A DNA stretch of 61,068 nt from Prochlorococcus sp. AG-409-D09 (GTDB lineage Bacteria > Cyanobacteriota > Cyanobacteriia > PCC-6307 > Cyanobiaceae): the NCBI GenBank assembly GCA_003215935.1, contig QCJQ01000001.1, positions 75,731 to 136,798 on the forward strand. Direction: 5' to 3'. Every line of letters begins with the position of its first letter. The stretch's first letter is position 1. The notes beneath the pieces are model-generated. The model was given only the letters and a program-made list of their open reading frames with translations. It made no database searches and was not told the origin of the DNA. Made by a program: the position numbers and the translations under genes. Below are positions 1,373 through 35,362 of this stretch, in pieces.

Positions 1373-2929
1373 TTAATGTAAGAAGTGTCTCATTCCTGTT
1401 AATACCATTTTGATACCAAGTTCATCGCAAGCTTCTATAGACTGCTTGTCTTTGATGCTTCCTCCAGGTTGAATAATTGCAGAGATTCCATACTTTGCAG
1501 CCAAGCGAACTGTATCATCAAAGGGGAAAAATCCATCACTTGCTAACACGGCTCCTTTAGATTTTGAACCGGCAGCTTCTAGTGCTAATTTCGCCGCACC
1601 AACTCTATTCATTTGCCCTGCTCCTATACCTAGACTTTGGCCATTAGATGCAATGGCAATTGCATTAGATCTGATATGTCTAACAACTTTCCAAGCAAAC
1701 TTAAGATCTTCAGATTCATTAGGATTTGGTGAGATTCGTGTGACTGTCTTCCATTCTTTTTCATTTATTCTTTTATCATCTTGATCTTGAATTAAAAGTC
1801 CACCAATTATGCTCCTTATATGTTTTCTTTCTGTATTATTAATTGCTAGTGAATTAAGTTCTAATAATCTGAGATTTTTCTTCTGAGAAAGTATTTCTCT
1901 TGCTTTGTTTTCAAAAGAGGGAGCAACAACACATTCTAAAAAAAGATTGTTTAATTCGACTGCCGTTGCTAAATCCACTGGAGCATTAAGAGCAACTATT
2001 CCTCCAAATGCGCTTATTCGATCTGCATCAAGGGCTCTTTTTAATGCTATTGCTAATGATTCACCAACTGCAACTCCACATGGATTTGTATGTTTAATAA
2101 CTACGGCAGCTTTTTCTAGATAATTAGTTTCTTTAGGGTTTTCATAGCCAAATTCTCTAACTGTTTGAAAAGCTGCTTCTAGATCTAGGAGGTTATTAGT
2201 ACTAAGTTCTTTTCCTTGAAGTTGTTTAACGTTTCCCCAGCCTACTTTTGGGGTGCTATACCAAATTGCTTTTTGATGAGGGTTTTCTCCATATCTAAGT
2301 TTTTGTTGAATAGGATAATCAGATATCCAAGGTGATTCTTCTGATTTAAGCTTTTGAGATAACCATTTACTAATTGCTATGTCATATGATGCAGTATGTT
2401 CAAATGCTTCTAAAGCTAATTGTTGCTTAAATTCTTGAGAAATTTGACCTTTACTTAAAGCGTTTAAAAATAATTTGTATTGATTAGGATTGGTCAAAAT
2501 AGATACTGATTGGTGGTTTTTTGCTGCAGCCCTAATCATTGCTGGTCCTCCTATATCGATGTTTTCGATAGCTTCATCCCATATGACATTTGGATTTGAT
2601 ACGGTTTCTTTAAATGGGTACAAGTTGACTATTACTAGATCAAATACATCAATATTGAGTTCTTTTAAGTCTTTTTGATGATTTAGATCGTCCTTTTTGG
2701 CGAGTATTCCTCCATGTATTAATGGGTGAAGAGTTTTGACTCTTCCTCCAAGTATCTCAGGAAAACCAGTTTTCTGAGATACTTTTTGTACAGGGATGTT
2801 TTCTGATTGAAGGAGTTGTGCTGTTCCCCCACTTGAAATAATTTCAAAGCCATGATCTTTCGTTAAGGATTTCACTAAAGGCAATATTCCTTGTTTGTTT
2901 GAGACACTTATCAATGCTCTTGGCGACAT
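1373..2929 (-). CDS. purH: Bifunctional AICAR transformylase / IMP cyclohydrolase
   Basis: PurH carries out the last two steps of de novo purine synthesis: formylation of AICAR with 10-formyl-THF, and ring closure to IMP. The 518 residues match the usual family length. The N-terminal MGS-like cyclohydrolase domain shows [10 protein letters not shown] and [17 protein letters not shown]. The transformylase domain shows LRYGENPHQ, the catalytic [30 protein letters not shown] and SDGFFPFDD, and ends in MRHFLH. It is single and complete, convergent with the DoxX gene and divergent from the esterase, with about 60 bp of upstream spacer. Confidence 0.97.
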
Positions 2930-2991
2930 GACTTAAGAGTTTTAAATGGATTCAATGTTCAACTTACGTAGCACAGAAGTAAATTGTTGGA

Positions 2992-3588
2992 ATGAATAAT
3001 GAAATTATTTCTATTTTTTCTGAAGGGGCCACTAAAAGGTTGGTTTTTCTTCATGGATGGGGAGCGGATGCTGGCGATTTATTGCCTCTTGGTAAAGCTT
3101 TAAATGCAACTGCAAATGAGAATTTTGAATTACTTTTTTTGCAAGCTCCTTATCAACATCCGCAAGGACTAGGTCGGCAATGGTTTTCTCTTTATCCTCA
3201 CGATTGGGAATCTATGCCCAAAGAGATAGAAGTTTTAAAAAAACGATTAAATTTATTAGAAACGAAAGAAATTGGACTCCAGAAAACTGTATTAGTTGGT
3301 TTTTCTCAAGGAGCAGCTATGGCATTAATTAGTGGTTGTCATTTGCCAGTTGCTGGAATTATTTCTTGCAGTGGATTTACTTATCCAGGTTGGATTCCTC
3401 CATTAAATAGGCCACCGGTCCTTTTGACTCATGGAAAAAACGATAATGTTGTTCCACCTCAATCTGCAGAAAACATTTTTGAGGTTTTAAATAAAAACAA
3501 TGTAGAACTAGAATTTTTCAATGGTGGACATGAAATCCCTCAATGCCTATTACCTAAATTTTTATTAGCTATTAATAATTGGATGTAG
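2992..3588 (+). CDS. Alpha/beta hydrolase, phospholipase/carboxylesterase family
   Basis: A 198-residue serine hydrolase. The HGWGADAGD oxyanion-hole region is followed by the nucleophile elbow GFSQGAAMA, an acid in THGKNDNVVPP and the catalytic histidine in NGGHEIP, completing a Ser-Asp-His triad. Length and order fit the small carboxylesterase/lysophospholipase group (pfam Abhydrolase_2). It is probably cytosolic, as there is no signal peptide. The natural substrate cannot be told from sequence. It is divergent from purH and converges on the DUF3155 gene with a 7-bp gap. Confidence 0.85.
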   Translation: MNNEIISIFSEGATKRLVFLHGWGADAGDLLPLGKALNATANENFELLFLQAPYQHPQGLGRQWFSLYPHDWESMPKEIEVLKKRLNLLETKEIGLQKTVLVGFSQGAAMALISGCHLPVAGIISCSGFTYPGWIPPLNRPPVLLTHGKNDNVVPPQSAENIFEVLNKNNVELEFFNGGHEIPQCLLPKFLLAINNWM

Positions 3589-3984: not shown

Positions 3985-4240
3985 TTGAGTAATTGAAGAT
4001 GCTTAGGTGCGCCTAAGAAATCCTCCTCGAGCATTAACTCGAGAGTAAATGCCAAAGTGTTAGGCGATAGAACCTGAAATTGTCGCGAAACACTGCGACT
4101 TAAATAGTGATCAAATCAACCCAGCTTGACGCATGCAGAGAACCCCGTAACCTCTGAAATAGTCCTGTTAGCACTCATGTGCAATTGAGCCGAATTAATC
4201 TTGAGCAACTTCCTTGGAAGTCTCATCACCTATTTCTACT
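3985..4240. ncRNA. Candidate structured RNA or long structured leader, unidentified
   Basis: This gene-free 358-bp interval is much more GC-rich and structured than other spacers here. It contains perfect inverted repeats in series: CTTAGG-tgcg-CCTAAG (about 4001-4016), CTCGAG-cattaa-CTCGAG (about 4027-4044), GTCGC-gaaacact-GCGAC (about 4082-4099), CAGAG...CTCTG (about 4136-4156), GCAC-tcat-GTGC (about 4171-4182) and ACTTCC-tt-GGAAGT (about 4207-4220). I see no RNase P, SRP or tmRNA signatures in either strand. 6S RNA cannot be excluded by eye. The strand is undetermined; one extra G-U pair in the CAGAG hairpin slightly favours minus, which would make it a leader of the DUF3155 gene. Confidence 0.5.
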
Positions 4241-4322
4241 AATATATATCTTAATACTTTTTTTCAAATTTACAACATTTTTATTCCTTCATCTTTAATC
4301 TTTTCTCCCAGAATTTTTCTCA

Positions 4323-5459
4323 ATGCATCTGACTGACAGGTTTTTGAATTTAGTACAGCAGCAATTGATTAGCTATGAAGATGATCAAAATATTGATCAT
4401 CTGGTTGTTTATGTAGCTAGATCAAATGACGGAAATTCTCCAAGATTGGAAGTTGTAGGAGAATGGCCAGCTTCAAAAAAAGTTTTACAACCAGTTGAGT
4501 CTGACCCTGAATTAAGAGCTCCTTCCTCTAATAGAAGATGGTACCCATTACAAGAAGGGTCGATTTTATTAGGTGTTCTTAGAGCTGAAAGAGTCCCTTC
4601 GACTGAGAATTGGCCAGAGTATTTAGATAAGCGACTTCAATCAACTGCTATTGCTCTTGGGCATTGTTTGGGTTTGGAATTTGATCGCAATAGACTTAAC
4701 AATGAACTTGCAGGACTTAAGGACCAGATAGGTGCAATGGTCCATCAGTTGCGAAATCCTTTAGCAGCTTTACGAACTTACGCACAACTCTTGATAAGAA
4801 AAATTGGTACAGATAGTGATCATATAAATTTAATTCAAGGCCTTTTAAGTGAACAGGATCAATTAAATAAATATCTTTTATCTTTGGAGCAATTAAGTAA
4901 TATGAAGCTTCCTAGTATTTCTGAAGGCTCAACAAGGTTGCTATTGCCACCATTGGTTTCAAAAGAGTCTTCTATTGATGTGAAGAGTTTGATTGAACCA
5001 TTAATAGAAAGGGCTTCTGCAAAAGCTAATTTACAAAATCGATTATGGAAAGGACCTTCATCTTGGCCTGATTGGACTGAAAAGGTTCGATCTATTCATC
5101 AAGGTCTTATTGGTGAAATAGTCGCTAATCTTTTGGAAAATGCTTTTAGATATAGCCCTCCTTCTGCGTCTATAGGTCTTGAGATTAGTAATAATGGTAT
5201 TTGTGTTTGGGATAGCGGTATGCCAATTAATGATAAGGAGAGAGAACGAATTTTTCAAAAAGGTTTTAGAGGTACAAGTAGTTCAGAATTGCCAGGAAGT
5301 GGATTAGGACTTGCGCTGGCGAGGCAATTATCTCAACAGTTAGGAGGAGATTTGGTCTTAATTAGTACTCCTTTTTCTTTTAATTCACTTCTACCAAAGG
5401 TAGGAAATGCTTTTGTGTTAACTCTACCTATGCAAATAATGTCAGAAGAAGAAATGTAG
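4323..5459 (+). CDS. Two-component sensor histidine kinase with N-terminal GAF-like region
   Basis: A 378-residue soluble sensor kinase with no transmembrane segment. Residues 1-125 look GAF-like. The HisKA helix follows with H-box MVHQLRNPLAALRTYAQLL (about residues 138-157). The HATPase_c domain shows the N box NLLENAFRYSP, the G1 motif VWDSG and the G2 motif GSGLGLALARQL. The soluble GAF-HisKA-HATPase plan resembles the cyanobacterial Hik2 / chloroplast sensor kinase group, but I cannot confirm that orthology by reading. No response regulator is adjacent. Its 3' end overlaps the convergent cobS by 32 bp. Confidence 0.85.
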   Translation: MHLTDRFLNLVQQQLISYEDDQNIDHLVVYVARSNDGNSPRLEVVGEWPASKKVLQPVESDPELRAPSSNRRWYPLQEGSILLGVLRAERVPSTENWPEYLDKRLQSTAIALGHCLGLEFDRNRLNNELAGLKDQIGAMVHQLRNPLAALRTYAQLLIRKIGTDSDHINLIQGLLSEQDQLNKYLLSLEQLSNMKLPSISEGSTRLLLPPLVSKESSIDVKSLIEPLIERASAKANLQNRLWKGPSSWPDWTEKVRSIHQGLIGEIVANLLENAFRYSPPSASIGLEISNNGICVWDSGMPINDKERERIFQKGFRGTSSSELPGSGLGLALARQLSQQLGGDLVLISTPFSFNSLLPKVGNAFVLTLPMQIMSEEEM

Positions 5460-6207
5460 AAGTTTCTACTAAAACAACTGAAGCTCCGTAGGAGTCTCCA
5501 TTGTGACCTTTAATTTTTCTTGCTAGATAAAATGGAATTATCAATGATGGAATAGTTCCAATAGATAGGAAATATAGAGCTAAAAGAGCTTTTTCTTTTT
5601 GTAATGGTGAGAAAATTATATAAAGAATCGACATGAAAATTATGACTAATGAAGGTATAAATTCCTTTAAATTACCTTGCCAATATTTTTGGTGAAATGA
5701 TTGTGATTTCTGTTTGTCAAGATATTTGAAATTTCCTATAGCAAAGAGAGCAGAACATCTTCCCCAAAAGCAGGCTATAGGAAAAGAATAAGGTGCTAAT
5801 TCACCTAATTCTATTAAAGAAGCTAATTGAAGAAGCATTACCAAAGAGAAGGATTGAACACCTGCTGCACCAACTCTGCTGTCTCTCATGGCCTCTAAGC
5901 ATTTTTGAGGCCCTGCAGCTATTCCATCTGCTGTGTCTATTAGTCCATCAATATGAAGGCCTCCAGTTATCCATATCCCTATCCCAACTGTAATTAGCGA
6001 AATTGTTATATTTGACCAGTGAAGTTTTGCTAAAATTAGCCAGATGATTCCTTGGAATATTCCAATAACAATTCCAATTAGTGGTGCAAAACGAGCAATC
6101 CTTTCGAATTGACAGTCAATCCATAGACATTTTGGTAAAATGGTATAAAAGACCCACGCTCCAGATAAATCTTTAATCCATTTTTGCTTATTCAGAATCT
6201 TTAGCAT
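5428..6207 (-). CDS. cobS: Adenosylcobinamide-GDP ribazoletransferase (cobalamin synthase)
   Basis: CobS joins adenosylcobinamide-GDP and alpha-ribazole in the final assembly of the (pseudo)cobalamin nucleotide loop at the inner membrane. The protein has 259 residues with several hydrophobic segments. The family hallmark HIDGLIDTADGIAAG near residue 83 is followed by MRDSRVGAAG, both characteristic of CobS. Length is normal. It is convergent with the histidine kinase (32-bp overlap) and divergent from tgt, apparently monocistronic. I saw no obvious cobalamin riboswitch upstream. Confidence 0.93.
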   Translation of the reverse strand: MLKILNKQKWIKDLSGAWVFYTILPKCLWIDCQFERIARFAPLIGIVIGIFQGIIWLILAKLHWSNITISLITVGIGIWITGGLHIDGLIDTADGIAAGPQKCLEAMRDSRVGAAGVQSFSLVMLLQLASLIELGELAPYSFPIACFWGRCSALFAIGNFKYLDKQKSQSFHQKYWQGNLKEFIPSLVIIFMSILYIIFSPLQKEKALLALYFLSIGTIPSLIIPFYLARKIKGHNGDSYGASVVLVETSTFLLLTLFA

Positions 6208-6279
6208 TTAGCTTTAAATTATAGAAGTTAAATTAGATTCAAAATTAATTTATTGCTCTTTTAAAAGGACTTTTAATAA

Positions 6280-7407
6280 GTGAACTCAGTGTTTAGGTTT
6301 CATATTGAAAATAATTGTTCTCAAACTTTTGCAAGAGTTGCTGTCCTAGACACTCCACATGGAAAAGTAAAAACGCCAAGGTTTATGCCTGTGGGAACTT
6401 TAGGAACTGTTAAAGGTATCACCTCTGAACAGTTGAAAAGTACCTCTGCGCAAATGATTCTTGCTAATACTTTTCATCTTCATTTACAGCCTGGAGAAGA
6501 TGTAGTCCGTATGGCTGGTGGTATTCATAAATTTATGAATTGGAAGGAGCCGATACTTACTGATTCTGGAGGGTTTCAAGTATTTAGCTTGGCAAAACTT
6601 AACAGCATTGATCACAAAGGAGTTTCTTTTCAAAGCCCAAGAGATGGACAACTTATAGAGCTTACTCCAGAAAAATCTATTCAAATTCAAATGGCTTTGG
6701 GTGCTGATGTAGCAATGGCTTTTGATCAATGTCCTCCTTTCCCAGCATCAGAAAATGATGTTAATGATGCATGCAATAGAACACATGATTGGTTAAAGCG
6801 ATGTGTATCCGCTCATTACAAAAAAGATCAAGCACTATTTGGAATAGTACAAGGTGGTTGTTTTGAACATTTACGTAAAAAAAGTGCTCAAGTTGTTTCA
6901 GAATTCGATTTACCTGGTTTCGCAATAGGCGGAGTTAGCGTTGGAGAGCCAATTAACGAAATTCATAAAATTGTTAGGCAAGTTCCCCCTCTGCTGCCCC
7001 AAGATCGACCTAGGTATTTGATGGGGATAGGTACACTTAAAGAAATGTCACTTGCAGTAGCAAATGGTATTGATCTTTTTGATTGTGTTTTGCCAACAAG
7101 GTTAGGCAGACATGGAACCGCTTTAGTCGAAGGAGAGCAATGGAATTTGCGTAATGCTCGATTTAAGAATGACTTTTTACCATTGGATAAAAGCTGCGCT
7201 TGTGAGACCTGTAAAGGCTATAGCAGGGCATATCTTCATCATTTGATTCGTAATAAGGAATTACTTGGTTTAACTTTATTAAGCCTTCATAACATTTCAC
7301 ATTTGATTCGTTTTACTAATGCAATGAGGCTTGCAATAAAGGATGGTTCTTTTTCAGAGGATTTCGCTCCATGGCAGAGTCGTTCTAAAGCACATCACAC
7401 GTGGTAG
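6280..7407 (+). CDS. tgt: tRNA-guanine(34) transglycosylase
   Basis: Tgt exchanges guanine-34 for the queuosine precursor preQ1 in GUN-anticodon tRNAs. The 375-residue protein shows the nucleophile and substrate loop [26 protein letters not shown], the second aspartate region [14 protein letters not shown], and the zinc site [17 protein letters not shown]. Length is normal. The start is GTG at 6280, preceded by an AAAAGGA-like ribosome site; no ATG fits. psbK begins only 21 bp after its stop, so the two are probably cotranscribed, an arrangement common in picocyanobacteria. Confidence 0.96.
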
Positions 7408-29976: not shown

Positions 29977-30411
29977 GTGCAGATAGAGTTGTCATGTGTG
30001 AAAGTGAAAACTGTGAATGAGGACACCAGCAAACCATCCAAAAATCATACAGATGAGCAAAATGCTGTTGAAGATGCTTTAGTTGATAAGGATGACCAGC
30101 TATTTCACCGGTTTGAGTGTTGTAGCTGTGGATATATTTATGACCCATCTGAGGGTATAAAGAAAATGAATATTTCTCCTGGTACTGCTTTCTTTCAATT
30201 AGACAGAGCTACATTTCGTTGTCCAGTTTGTAGATTAGGTATTGAATACTATAAAGATATTGGTCCAGCATCTAAGCCAAGTGGTTTTGAAGAGAACCTG
30301 ACTTATGGGTTTGGGTTTAATAAACTACCTGCAAGTCAAAAAAATGTGTTGATTTTTGGCGCTTTTGCATTTGCAGCTGCTTGCTTCTTATCTCTTTATT
30401 CGTTGCATTAA
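29977..30411 (+). CDS. rubA: Membrane-anchored rubredoxin (PSII assembly factor RubA)
   Basis: A 144-residue protein. A polar N-terminus is followed by a rubredoxin domain with two iron-binding knuckles (CCSCGY near 50 and CPVCRLG near 78) and one C-terminal transmembrane helix (about 120-140). This build is the cyanobacterial/plastid RubA, needed for photosystem assembly. It is encoded with ycf48 and psbE, as in other cyanobacteria. The start is uncertain: GTG 29977 has AAGGA just upstream, and in-frame GTGs follow at 29998, 30004 and 30013. Confidence 0.93.
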   Translation: MQIELSCVKVKTVNEDTSKPSKNHTDEQNAVEDALVDKDDQLFHRFECCSCGYIYDPSEGIKKMNISPGTAFFQLDRATFRCPVCRLGIEYYKDIGPASKPSGFEENLTYGFGFNKLPASQKNVLIFGAFAFAAACFLSLYSLH

Positions 30412-30412
30412 C

Positions 30413-31429
30413 ATGAAAAATTTTTTTTCTAAGTGTTTTAATTTATTTCTGATTTTTTGTATTGGGATTGGTCTAAGTGGTTGCACTGTCAGCAATGCTT
30501 CTATGGCTGAAGAAAGTCCTTGGCAGTCAATTCAATTGAATACGGACTCAAATCCTTTAGATATAAGTTTTGTTGATGATGAAAATGGGTTTTTAGTTGG
30601 GACTGATCGACTAATTCTCGAGACAAATGATGGGGGTGTTTCTTGGAGTGAAAGAAATTTGGATATTCCTTCTGAAGGTAATTTTCGAATGATCAGTATT
30701 GATTTTCTCGATGATGAAGGTTGGATTGCTGGACAACCAGGTTTAATTTTGCATTCAACTGATAAAGGTAAAAATTGGGTCCGATTGGATTTGGGCAGCA
30801 AATTACCTGGAGATCCATATTTGATAACTTCTTTAGGTAATGATTCCGCAGAACTTGCAACTACTGCAGGAGCAATATATAAAACTGTAGATGGAGGTTC
30901 AAATTGGGAAGCAATTGTCTTAGATACTTCCGGGTCAGGAGGTATTAGGGATCTTCGACGGTTAGATGATGGGAGCTATTTGAGCGTTAGTAGCTTAGGA
31001 AACTTTTTTTCTTATGTTCCTCCTAATGGAGAAAACTGGGAGCCTCATCAAAGAGCAAGTAGTAAAAGAGTTCAAAGTGTTGGTTCGAACACAAGTGGAG
31101 ATGTGTGGATGCTTTCAAGAGGGGCTGAAATTCGTTTTAATAAACAAACAGGAGATTTAGATAATTGGCAGAAACCAATCATCCCAATCGTTAATGGATA
31201 TAACTATCAAGACTTGTCTATTGACCCAAATAATTCAATTTGGGTTGCTGGCGGGAATGGAACATTGCTTTTTAGTAAGGATCAGGGTGAATCTTGGCAA
31301 CAAGACCCTATTGGGGATGCAGTTCCTACTAATTTCATTCGCATTCAGTTTGAGAAGAGCAAATCAACTGGTATGACTAAAGGATTTGTCTTTGGAGAGA
31401 GAGGAAATCTTTTACTTTGGCGAGGATAA
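30413..31429 (+). CDS. ycf48: Photosystem II assembly lipoprotein Ycf48 (HCF136)
   Basis: Ycf48 binds early D1 intermediates during PSII assembly. From ATG 30413 the 338-residue protein has a signal peptide with a lipobox (GIGLSGC), so it should be lipid-anchored on the lumenal side. The rest is a seven-bladed propeller with repeated segments such as ETNDGGVSWSER, HSTDKGKNWVRL, KTVDGGSNWEAI and FSKDQGESWQQD. The frame can be extended back to 30356, but that removes the signal peptide from the N-terminus and overlaps rubA. It starts 1 bp after the rubA stop. Confidence 0.95.
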   Translation: MKNFFSKCFNLFLIFCIGIGLSGCTVSNASMAEESPWQSIQLNTDSNPLDISFVDDENGFLVGTDRLILETNDGGVSWSERNLDIPSEGNFRMISIDFLDDEGWIAGQPGLILHSTDKGKNWVRLDLGSKLPGDPYLITSLGNDSAELATTAGAIYKTVDGGSNWEAIVLDTSGSGGIRDLRRLDDGSYLSVSSLGNFFSYVPPNGENWEPHQRASSKRVQSVGSNTSGDVWMLSRGAEIRFNKQTGDLDNWQKPIIPIVNGYNYQDLSIDPNNSIWVAGGNGTLLFSKDQGESWQQDPIGDAVPTNFIRIQFEKSKSTGMTKGFVFGERGNLLLWRG

Positions 31430-31785: not shown

Positions 31786-31813
31786 ACCATCATCATCTGA
31801 TTGCTATTTAGCT

Positions 31814-31933
31814 ATGCAAGTCAATCCAAATCCAAATAAGCTTCCGGTTGAGTTGAACCGTACAAGTCTTTATCTGGGACTTCTCCTTGTTTTTGTAATG
31901 GGAATTCTTTTCTCTAGTTACTTCTTTAATTAA
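31814..31933 (+). CDS. psbL: Photosystem II reaction centre protein L
   Basis: A 39-residue single-helix protein at the PSII dimer interface. The sequence [20 protein letters not shown] followed by [19 protein letters not shown] is almost the textbook PsbL. It starts at ATG 31814 and stops at TAA 31931-31933. It lies directly downstream of psbE instead of downstream of psbF, and psbJ starts 11 bp later. Confidence 0.97.
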
Positions 31934-31944
31934 ACTTTCTTATC

Positions 31945-32142
31945 ATGAGTAAAACAAAAGGGCCTGATGGACGCCTTGGAGATCGACTTCCAGATGGACG
32001 TCCGGCTGTTTCATGGGAGCGACGTTGGACTGAAGGGGCTTTGCCTCTATGGTTGGTTGCTACTGCAGGTGGTGTTGCTGTAATCTTTGTCTTGGGAATA
32101 TTTTTCTATGGTTCCTATACAGGCGTTGGTAACGCTGGATAA
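31945..32142 (+). CDS. psbJ: Photosystem II reaction centre protein J
   Basis: A 65-residue protein with a polar N-terminus ([20 protein letters not shown]) and one transmembrane helix ([20 protein letters not shown]) ending [12 protein letters not shown], as in other Prochlorococcus PsbJ. PsbJ lies near cytochrome b559 and the QB site. It is the last gene of the psbE operon and is followed by a strong terminator at 32173-32211. Confidence 0.96.
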
Positions 32143-32236: not shown

Positions 32237-33172
32237 TTAATTATCCCAATATTTTTTAGTTAAAACTTCTAGTTTCTTAAGAGTTTGTTTGGGGACTTTT
32301 TCTGGTGATGTAACTAGTCCATTTCTTAAAGAATTATGTGCAGAACTGCTGGGCCTGATGGAAGCTACTTTTAATGCAGTTGCTTTTATAATTTCTTCTC
32401 CAATTTTTGCATTTTCGATCACATTTTTAATGATCATTTCTACTGTTACGTTTGCATGATCGTGATGCCAACAGTCATAGTCAGTAACCATTGCAAGAGT
32501 TACATACGCTATTTCAGCTTCTCTCGCTAATCTTGCTTCGGTATGGTTCGTCATTCCAATGACTGAGCACCCCCATTGCCTGTATAAATTAGATTCTGCT
32601 CTTGTTGAAAAGGCGGGTCCTTCCATTGCAAGATATGTTCCTCCAATATGCACTTCTCTAGAGAGAGGTAAAAACTTCTTTGCTTCTTCAATAAGAATCT
32701 TTGAAAGATTGGCACAAAAAGGGTCTGCCATACTTACATGGGCAACCGCTCCATCACAAAAAAAAGTTAAAGGTCTTTGTTGAGTCCTATCGATAAATTG
32801 ATTTGGAATCACCATATCTAATGGTTTTATATTTTCTTTAAGAGAGCCCACTGCTGAAGGTGAAAGAATCCATCTCACATTGAGATAGCGAAATGCCCAT
32901 ATATTGGCTTTATATGGAACTTCTGTTGGATTAAGTGTGTGATTTCTTCCATGGCGAGCAAGGAAAATAATCTCTATTTCGTCTAAATTTCCAATAAGTA
33001 GATTGTCAGAGGTTTTGCCAAAAGGCGTATCTATTTCAATCTCCTTGAGGTTTTTTATCCATTTAATGTTATACACCCCACTTCCACCGATGACTCCAAT
33101 GCGCGCTTTTGCTAAATCGGAGTTATCTAACGCTGTTCCTGAAATGTTTTCAGATAAATAATTGTGGATCAT
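32237..33172 (-). CDS. mtnP: S-methyl-5'-thioadenosine phosphorylase
   Basis: MtnP splits methylthioadenosine into adenine and methylthioribose-1-phosphate, recycling the by-product of polyamine synthesis. Motifs are IGVIGGSGVYNI, FLARHGRNHTLNPTEVPYKA, GTYLAMEGPAFSTRAES and GMTNHTEARLAREAE. The frame reaches ATG 33202, but this overlaps 39 bp of the divergent selD. ATG 33172 (311 residues, 9-bp overlap) is the better compromise, since conserved sequence begins much later. Confidence 0.93.
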   Translation of the reverse strand: MIHNYLSENISGTALDNSDLAKARIGVIGGSGVYNIKWIKNLKEIEIDTPFGKTSDNLLIGNLDEIEIIFLARHGRNHTLNPTEVPYKANIWAFRYLNVRWILSPSAVGSLKENIKPLDMVIPNQFIDRTQQRPLTFFCDGAVAHVSMADPFCANLSKILIEEAKKFLPLSREVHIGGTYLAMEGPAFSTRAESNLYRQWGCSVIGMTNHTEARLAREAEIAYVTLAMVTDYDCWHHDHANVTVEMIIKNVIENAKIGEEIIKATALKVASIRPSSSAHNSLRNGLVTSPEKVPKQTLKKLEVLTKKYWDN

Positions 33173-35362
33173 CTTGTTCTTGCTGGTGGTGGTCATGCTC
33201 ATGCTTTGATTTTGCTGAGATGGTTAATGAATCCTGAATTTCGCCCTAAAGGATTAATAACTCTAATAAATAGATCTAGTACAACTTTTTATTCAGGCAT
33301 GATGCCTGGAGTTTTATCTAAGAGATACTTTACAAATGAAGCATTAATAAATATACGCTTTTTAGCAGATCGTGTAGGTGTTGATTTCATTTGTGCCGAA
33401 ATAAATGGCCTCGATGTTTATGGACAAGAATTATATCTAGAAGGACGCCCTTCTTTATCCTTCTCCAAGCTTAGTCTAGATGTTGGATCAGAGATTAAAA
33501 CTAATAAAATAAATAGCCTACAGATTGATGATCAGACATTAGCTATACCAATTAAGCCTTTTTATAATGCATTACGTCTAATAGAAGTAGAAGATGATAA
33601 AGCTATGAGTATAAACGCTAAGCCATTTTCAATTATTGGCTCTGGTCTCTCTGGATTAGAGGTTGCATTTGCATTACGGCATAGATGGCCAATGCGATCT
33701 ATCCAACTCTACTCGCATTCTAAAATCTTTAATAGAAGTATAAAAGTTGCTTTAAGAGAGGCGAAAATTCAGTTGAAATCTAATCAAGAAAAGATTTCCT
33801 CCACGGCATTAATATGTACCGGAAGTAAGTCTCCTCAATGGCTACAAAATAGTAATTTACTTGTTGATTCTTCGGGAAGAGTTTTAACGACGAAGACTTT
33901 GCAAGTGATTAATTATCCAAACATATTTGCTGCTGGAGATTGCGGTGTGATTTCAGGTGAGTTTCGCCCACCTTCAGGTGTGTGGGCAGTACGCGCTGCG
34001 CAGCCTTTAGCAGAAAATATTGAAAGATCGTTACTGGGTCTTTCTCTTCGCCGTTGGTCTCCTCAAAAATGGGCAATGCAACTTGTTGGTGGTTTCTCTG
34101 CTTCAGATAAATATATAGCTTGGTGCTTTTTGGGGGGATTAATTCTTGGTCCCACTCCTTTGCTTTGGAATTTGAAAGAGAGCATTGACCGCAGATTTAT
34201 GGAGAAGTTCTCTTCTGTATTATCGATGAATAGTAGTGATGAAGAAAATCAGTTAAAAATGGAGTGCAGAGGGTGTGCTGCAAAGATTCCTGAACAGTCT
34301 TTAAAGGATGCTTTAAGTAAAGCGTCTTTACCTTTGTTAGCAACTGATCCTGAAGATGCTTCTTTCGTGGGGGAATTAAAAGGAGGGAAAAATTTGTTGC
34401 AAAGTGTAGATGGCTTCCCTGCTTTGGTGGCTGACCCTTGGTTGAATGCACGTTTGACAACCTTGCATGCTTGTTCAGATCTTTGGGCTAGTGGTGCATT
34501 TGTGTCTTCAGCTCAGGCATTAATTACTCTTCCAGCTGTTTCTTCAAATATTCAAAAGGAATTATTGATACAAATTTTGCATGGAATTCAATCGGTTTTA
34601 ACTCCTCAAGGTGCAAAACTGATTGGTGGACATACAATGGAATCCCGTAATTCTTATCCTATATCAACTCCTATTAGTCTTTCTATAGAGATATCTTTAT
34701 CTGTTAATGGAATAGTTGAAAACAGTAAAAGTATTTGGTCAAAGAGTGGATTGGAAGATGGAGATGATCTTTTAATAAGTAGACCATTAGGAACCGGAGT
34801 TCTTTTTGCGGGGTTAAGGAAGGGAATTGTTGCATTGAGAGATTTTGAGAAGAATTTCGCTCAGATTAACGCCAGTCAGGACAATCTCTTAAAAACTTTA
34901 ATTGGAATGCAACGCCAAAGTCCTTCTGGCAGAATTGTTCATGCATGTACAGATATTACTGGTTTTGGTTTGTTAGGACATTTAGGCGAAATGATTAATT
35001 CAACAAATAAATCTCGTAAGGCTCAAGGTTTATCTCTATTGAGAATTAATTTATTTGCTTTTAATATCCCAGTATATGTAGGAGTTTTTGATCTTTTTGA
35101 GCAAGGTTGTTTTTCAACTTTGGCTCCATATAATCGTAAGGCATGGAAGTTTTTACAACCGAGTTTGGAAACTTCAGAACTTATTTCACTGGATGTTGGG
35201 ACAATGTCACAAGATAGTGAAAAGTACAAAGCTATTATGGAATTAATTGTGGACCCTCAAACATGTGGTCCTTTGGTATTAGCCTGTTCTCGGAAGACTA
35301 GCATTGAGTTAATGAAAACCGGCTCTTGGAGTCAAATCGGTAAAGTTGTCGAGTCTTATTAG
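33164..35362 (+). CDS. selD: Fusion of NDH-type FAD oxidoreductase and selenide, water dikinase
   Basis: A 732-residue two-domain protein. Residues 1-345 form a pyridine-nucleotide disulfide/NDH-2-like flavoprotein: FAD loop LVLAGGGHAHALIL, second nucleotide loop IIGSGLSGLEVA, and FAAGDCGVI. Residues 365-732 form SelD: active-site ECRGCAAKI with Cys371 and Lys374, SVDGFPAL, and DITGFGLLGHL. SelD makes selenophosphate from selenide and ATP, and the fused flavoprotein is known in cyanobacteria. It starts at GTG 33164, needed to keep the GGGHAH loop, and overlaps the divergent mtnP start. Confidence 0.92.
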   Translation: MDHLVLAGGGHAHALILLRWLMNPEFRPKGLITLINRSSTTFYSGMMPGVLSKRYFTNEALINIRFLADRVGVDFICAEINGLDVYGQELYLEGRPSLSFSKLSLDVGSEIKTNKINSLQIDDQTLAIPIKPFYNALRLIEVEDDKAMSINAKPFSIIGSGLSGLEVAFALRHRWPMRSIQLYSHSKIFNRSIKVALREAKIQLKSNQEKISSTALICTGSKSPQWLQNSNLLVDSSGRVLTTKTLQVINYPNIFAAGDCGVISGEFRPPSGVWAVRAAQPLAENIERSLLGLSLRRWSPQKWAMQLVGGFSASDKYIAWCFLGGLILGPTPLLWNLKESIDRRFMEKFSSVLSMNSSDEENQLKMECRGCAAKIPEQSLKDALSKASLPLLATDPEDASFVGELKGGKNLLQSVDGFPALVADPWLNARLTTLHACSDLWASGAFVSSAQALITLPAVSSNIQKELLIQILHGIQSVLTPQGAKLIGGHTMESRNSYPISTPISLSIEISLSVNGIVENSKSIWSKSGLEDGDDLLISRPLGTGVLFAGLRKGIVALRDFEKNFAQINASQDNLLKTLIGMQRQSPSGRIVHACTDITGFGLLGHLGEMINSTNKSRKAQGLSLLRINLFAFNIPVYVGVFDLFEQGCFSTLAPYNRKAWKFLQPSLETSELISLDVGTMSQDSEKYKAIMELIVDPQTCGPLVLACSRKTSIELMKTGSWSQIGKVVESY

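Follow-up and report, generated by a model that had tools for sequence, protein, structure and literature searches.

The window, by which we mean the whole stretch of 61,068 nucleotides from Prochlorococcus sp. AG-409-D09, carries a psbE operon flanked by two conserved neighbours (Table 1). The upstream neighbour, which we take to be a ycf48-like gene, probably has its true start slightly downstream of position 30356, and the downstream one is presumably a methylthioadenosine phosphorylase-like gene (mtnP). A preliminary description of this DNA had claimed that psbF, the gene for the beta subunit of cytochrome b559, is missing from the operon, and this proved correct: psbE and psbL are intact and lie 28 bp apart, and the spacer has no coding capacity and no leftover of the PsbF helix. 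In a search of 60 relatives, PF00283 detected a psbE-psbF pair about 250-300 bp apart in nearly all cyanobacteria. The PsbE of the window retains the heme ligand His24 (codon 31606-31608) and Arg19, and has Ala27 (codon 31615-31617) where the usual residue is Thr.

Table 1. Genes and spacer of the psbE operon region in the window
Feature	Position	Strand	Evidence and remarks
ycf48-like gene (presumed), conserved neighbour upstream of the operon	30356..31429	+	adjoins psbE in the relatives examined
psbE, cytochrome b559 alpha, 82 aa	31537..31785	+	PF00283 57.9 bits, PF00284 64.5 bits; intact
psbE-psbL spacer, 28 bp, psbF site of other cyanobacteria	31786..31813	+	homologous spacer ATCTGATTGC... 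in LLI genomes
psbL, 39 aa, intact	31814..31933	+	PF02419 82.2 bits
psbJ, 65 aa, intact	31945..32142	+	PF01788 56 bits
methylthioadenosine phosphorylase-like gene (presumed), conserved neighbour downstream	32237..33202	-	in the tree with ycf48, psbL and psbJ

Clade-wide loss of psbF

The assembly of the window genome comprises 1.22 Mb in 49 contigs and is 64.8% complete. With PF00283, a model that covers both cytochrome b559 subunits, psbE was the sole match in the whole assembly. A search of this genome for PsbF had been proposed in the preliminary description, and our query (its first few residues entered by hand, the remainder a 97% match to the psbF of SS120) returned psbE and noise at E≤10 and no psbF; its match to the psbF of SS120 had an E-value of 8.5e-20. 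Because of the incompleteness of the assembly, the absence of psbF elsewhere in the genome could not be proven from it alone. A phage-borne psbEFLJ was rejected, as no phage record matched the region.

Junctions without psbF were found in 18 genomes of one clade, the window included, and in one genome outside it. The psbE-psbL spacer measures 28-34 bp in the clade, whereas nearly all other genomes examined have about 145-250 bp there, psbF included, and the spacers of LLI and of the window are visibly homologous (ATCTGATTGC...). Seven of the clade genomes are closed and at least 99% complete, namely MIT1223, an LLVIII isolate (PMC11559063), and the LLI genomes NATL2A and MIT0801 (PMC4421930), G105, G130, G192 and G203. 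The pattern also occurs in eight single cells derived from several plates (AG-402-P18, AG-311-J23, AG-402-C09, AG-363-B05, AG-402-B19, AG-402-K14, AG-424-E20 and AG-410-A05); the single cells AG-402-M23, AG-402-O21 and AG-402-L09 have been assigned to LLI (PMC6370341). Since closed relatives and independent single cells share the junction, the operon is genuinely without psbF. In a fuller tree, built on ycf48, psbL, psbJ and mtnP with psbE left out and the draft genome G094 included, the window, LLI and LLVIII formed one clade (support 100/97) with the window as the sister of LLI. The junctions and this grouping together show that psbF was excised once, in the common ancestor of LLI and LLVIII, to which the window genome also traces back.

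Two readings that the preliminary description had offered, a loss of about 150 bp from the assembly and a relocation of psbF, thus find little room. The window does come from a fragmented and incomplete draft, typical of single-cell amplification, in which a deletion by assembly or amplification could be imagined. However, homologous junctions without psbF are present in 17 other clade genomes, among them the closed NATL2A, MIT0801 and MIT1223, other LLI genomes and the single cells, and we regard the chance of such an artifact as negligible. A normal psbF lying elsewhere in these genomes and missed in our searches is almost as improbable. It would gain some ground from the window assembly, which is only 65% complete, but in all seven closed clade genomes PF00283 matched only psbE and the product of one other gene, and in MIT1223 this second match was distant from psbE, which has no psbF partner there, and lay in a longer frame. 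The PsbF query at E≤10 revealed no further copy in MIT1223 or in the single cells. The distant gene is a PsbY-PsbF-like paralogue, hereafter the long form, and not a canonical psbF with its His that has moved. What remains of the three readings is an unusual cytochrome b559, in that the beta-like protein left in these genomes is without the heme ligand: for a functional b559 heterodimer, the PsbE His ligand is present in the seven closed genomes and no His-bearing beta subunit was found in them.

No report of a psbF loss in Prochlorococcus was found in the literature searched, which lay outside the subscription journals. One survey called psbF 'semi-conserved' in cyanobacteria and ascribed discrepancies to the sets of genomes used (PMC5464585).

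The long form

The long form is a protein of about 97-101 aa encoded at a distant locus outside the psbE operon, and it consists of a PsbY-like N-terminal helix, a linker of about 30 residues and a PsbF-like helix. An AlphaFold model of low confidence (pLDDT 59) has two helices at residues 3-25 and 64-90. Canonical PsbF (PF00283, TIGR01333), whose gene sits between psbE and psbL, is a single helix of about 40-50 aa. The long form shows homology to it in its C-terminal helix (YPVFTVR..A.N.LGIPTVFFLGAI.AMQF), which passes the PF00283 cut-off of 30 with 37-38 bits in the LLVIII and LLII/III proteins; against TIGR01333, MIT1223 scored 63.2 bits and an HLII copy 59.8, just under the cut-off of 61.15. 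However, Asn stands at the position of the heme-ligating His in each of the 60 distinct long forms, and in 59 of them Thr replaces the nearby Trp. Apart from these heme-pocket residues, the PsbF-like helix is nearly fully conserved, and the Arg on the propionate side (TVR) is retained. The N-terminal helix weakly matches the first half of PsbY, a neighbour of b559 in PSII, but stays under the PF06298 family cut-off of 24 (15.8-17.5 bits, E 0.0036-0.013), and the match to NF009711, also a PsbY model, is weak as well (E 0.012-0.12); unlike PsbY, the helix is fused to a PsbF-like one.

The protein is already catalogued by name in NCBIfam as 'cytochrome b559 subunit beta, long form' (NF002717/NF002720), whose models match the proteins of MIT1223, NATL2A, SS120 and HLII over their full length (NF002717, cut-off 153: NATL2A 182.3, SS120 179.3 and MIT1223 157.3 bits). 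The entries name it as a beta subunit, and we found nothing there about the missing heme ligand or about its status as the sole beta-like protein in the clade. Pairwise dN/dS of the long form was 0.04-0.06 in LLI, LLII/III and HL pairs, alike in genomes with and without psbF, when the NATL2A-MIT0801 pair, too close for use, and three saturated pairs are set aside. A ratio of about 0.05 indicates a working protein under strong purifying selection.

The distribution of the long form is uneven. It occurs alongside a normal psbF in SS120 and its relatives, in MIT9401 and MIT9107 and in many HL single cells, and in SS120 PsbF is present in the proteome (PMC5451487). Given this coexistence in SS120 and many HL strains, the original job of the long form was a different one, perhaps outside the PsbF place, which counts against the reading proposed below. 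It is absent from the LLVII strains MIT1300, MIT1341 and MIT1307 and from two genomes that we take to be MED4 and MIT9301, and the idea that it is universal in Prochlorococcus was therefore rejected. A separate PsbY was detected in SS120, MED4, MIT1300 and MIT1341; MIT1223 gave no match and NATL2A no significant one, so that in the latter two the long form is the only homologue detected of PsbF and of PsbY alike. In the 64.8%-complete assembly of the window genome neither the long form nor its neighbour genes (a joined query, run without a positive control) gave a match, and we infer from the relatives that this genome, too, has the long form.

Fusions of this kind have formed elsewhere. Chain F of the PSII structure 7ymi (99 aa), which we take to be from Acaryochloris, carries PsbF and PsbY helices on one chain, and its place in a solved PSII indicates that PsbF-PsbY fusions can be subunits of the complex. 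In the draft genome G038, of a cyanobacterium outside the Prochlorococcus family, a third gene (L230, contig 550) encodes PsbF followed by a PsbY-like helix. Both differ from the long form in their opposite order, with PsbF ahead of PsbY, and in having retained the His that ligates the heme; the G038 fusion is an independent one.

The long-form locus has further features. Two conserved membrane proteins adjoin the gene ('..LWHTYMFPRFF..' in one and '..RFMAIWVFP..FVGPLKGTNPFG' in the other, which SS120 shares), at L022:2981-3577 and 4165-4566, L191:1756-2184 and 2835-3281, L024:3190-3798, and L100:4410-4778 and 6095-6508. They had no relatives in NCBIfam or PDB and no Pfam match over the cut-off, and they are candidates for Prochlorococcus photosystem subunits of a new kind. 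In HL strains, the long form is followed directly on its downstream side by a second small PsbY-like gene (MDIRFLIVGAPF...), at L100:5310-5495 and at the corresponding position of most HL loci among L066-L115; this gene resembles a tandem duplicate of the N-terminal half of the long form. The long form of G013 (L026:3793-4068) retains the PsbF Trp and already has the change of His to Asn (TVRWLAINALGIP), and it may represent an intermediate; the G013 draft, 90% complete, yielded no psbE.

Second loss and changes in PsbE

The one genome without psbF outside the LLI/LLVIII clade is G094, a draft of 84% completeness. At L206:2403-2770 its psbE stop is followed by two bases and then the psbL start (TAG CC ATG), and the draft gave no match for psbF or for the long form. 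As the breakpoints differ and the fuller tree places G094 outside the clade, this is a separate loss of psbF; an earlier tree without G094 needed a single loss, whereas the fuller one needs two.

Among 74 distinct operon haplotypes, PsbE has Ala27 (HAVALP) in all six without psbF, compared to one of the 68 with psbF, and this one (L019) is from a distant cyanobacterium in which the alignment is doubtful. Since the change from Thr27 to Ala is present in both independent losses, G094 included, it is probably a co-adaptation to the loss of psbF. His24 of PsbE is retained in all genomes without psbF, and Arg19 and Tyr20 are also retained in the psbF-less clade.

PsbE was altered in another way in six LLVII-grade genomes: G001 (L033), G012 (L034), MIT1307 (G102, L195), G129 (L196), G020 (L202) and G021 (L203). 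In these, His24 is replaced by Gln and Arg19 by Lys or Asp, while PsbF keeps its His and has Phe for Trp. The Arg of Thermosynechococcus that matches Arg19 contacts a heme propionate (PMC4709441), and heme binding thus seems to have been lost in this lineage too. Taken together, the psbF losses in LLI/LLVIII and in G094 and the PsbE lesion in LLVII suggest a relaxed requirement for heme b559 among low-light Prochlorococcus.

Photosystem II and the heme of cytochrome b559

From the sequences we infer that PSII of the psbF-less clade probably functions with no heme b559 bound in the normal way. After the ancestor of LLI and LLVIII had lost the whole psbF from psbEFLJ, the long form would have taken the PsbF place beside PsbE, and it may also fill the neighbouring PsbY place, because searches of MIT1223 and NATL2A revealed no psbY gene apart from it. 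Cytochrome b559 would then serve as an assembly scaffold, its heme either absent or held on His24 of PsbE alone. We give a probability of about 0.6 to this reading, in which the long form acts both as structural beta subunit and as PsbY, while heme b559 either is missing or has a single His ligand. In PSII, PsbY runs from the lumen to the cytoplasm and PsbF from the cytoplasm to the lumen. A fusion of the two is topologically sensible because they run in opposite directions. It also fits the local geometry, since PsbY influences the redox form of b559 (PMC9214863). What drove the change is a matter of speculation; saving of iron in dim, iron-poor water and a weak need there for photoprotection by b559 might both have contributed.

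Work on mutants is relevant here. PSII assembly requires both b559 polypeptides, and water oxidation is independent of the heme (PMC4709441, PMC9214863). Like the PSII proposed here, that of the Thermosynechococcus alpha mutants H23A and H23M assembles without heme b559; the apo-b559 mutants reached the wild-type level of PSII and showed only a slower recovery from photoinhibition (PMC4709441, PMC9214863). However, those are laboratory point mutants of PsbE, whereas here we deal with natural clades, with a loss of psbF or with the LLVII change of His to Gln in PsbE. As a counterpoint, photoautotrophy was lost in most Synechocystis mutants of a single His ligand (PMC4709441).

A different arrangement, which we hold to be possible but considerably less probable, is that the heme was kept and its ligation altered, with His24 of PsbE paired with the Asn of the long form, with water or with a second PsbE (alpha-alpha), giving a low-potential cytochrome b559. 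The unchanged His24, Arg19 and Tyr20 of PsbE in the clade hint at some retained contact with heme, which speaks against heme loss, and the propionate-side Arg kept in the long form points in the same direction; in the LLVII His24 to Gln lineage, by contrast, Arg19 is gone as well, as expected with true heme loss. However, Asn ligates heme poorly, the adjacent Trp has become Thr in nearly all long forms, and with an alpha-alpha pair there would be nothing for the strongly conserved PsbF-like helix to do. It is more doubtful still that the long form is an antenna or assembly protein peculiar to Prochlorococcus, which might bind chlorophyll at the Asn, and that PsbE alone occupies the b559 place. 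Such a function would agree with its occurrence beside a normal psbF in SS120, MIT9401, MIT9107 and others, with its position next to conserved membrane proteins without an assigned family, and with the draft G094, in which neither gene was seen, though that draft is only 84% complete. The near-complete conservation of the PsbF-like helix argues instead for packing against the same partners, and an antenna or assembly role also fits poorly with NATL2A and MIT1223, where no other homologue of PsbF or PsbY was detected.

On a wider scale, PSII without heme b559 may have arisen at least three times in low-light Prochlorococcus: in LLI/LLVIII, in G094 and in the MIT1307 lineage, where His24 became Gln and Arg19 was lost. 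In LLI/LLVIII the Asn-bearing fusion would have taken the places of PsbF and PsbY, possibly saving iron or carrying another cofactor. We consider the odds on this extended scenario to be about even.

Cytochrome b559 has been described as an essential PSII component in all oxygenic phototrophs, and the role of its heme is an old open question (PMC4709441, PMC12661325). The cultured strains NATL2A, MIT0801, axenic MIT1223 and, on the PsbE side, MIT1307, all with closed genomes, appear to be naturally without one heme ligand, while their close relatives SS120, MIT1300, MIT1341 and MED4 kept both. A comparison of PSII between such strains would test the function of the heme directly and would need no engineered mutants. 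The loss also has a bearing on how much iron is required at the base of the sunlit ocean. psbF should not be treated as universal in models of PSII or in marker sets. If our reading is true, heme b559 would be dispensable in nature for some common ocean phototrophs.
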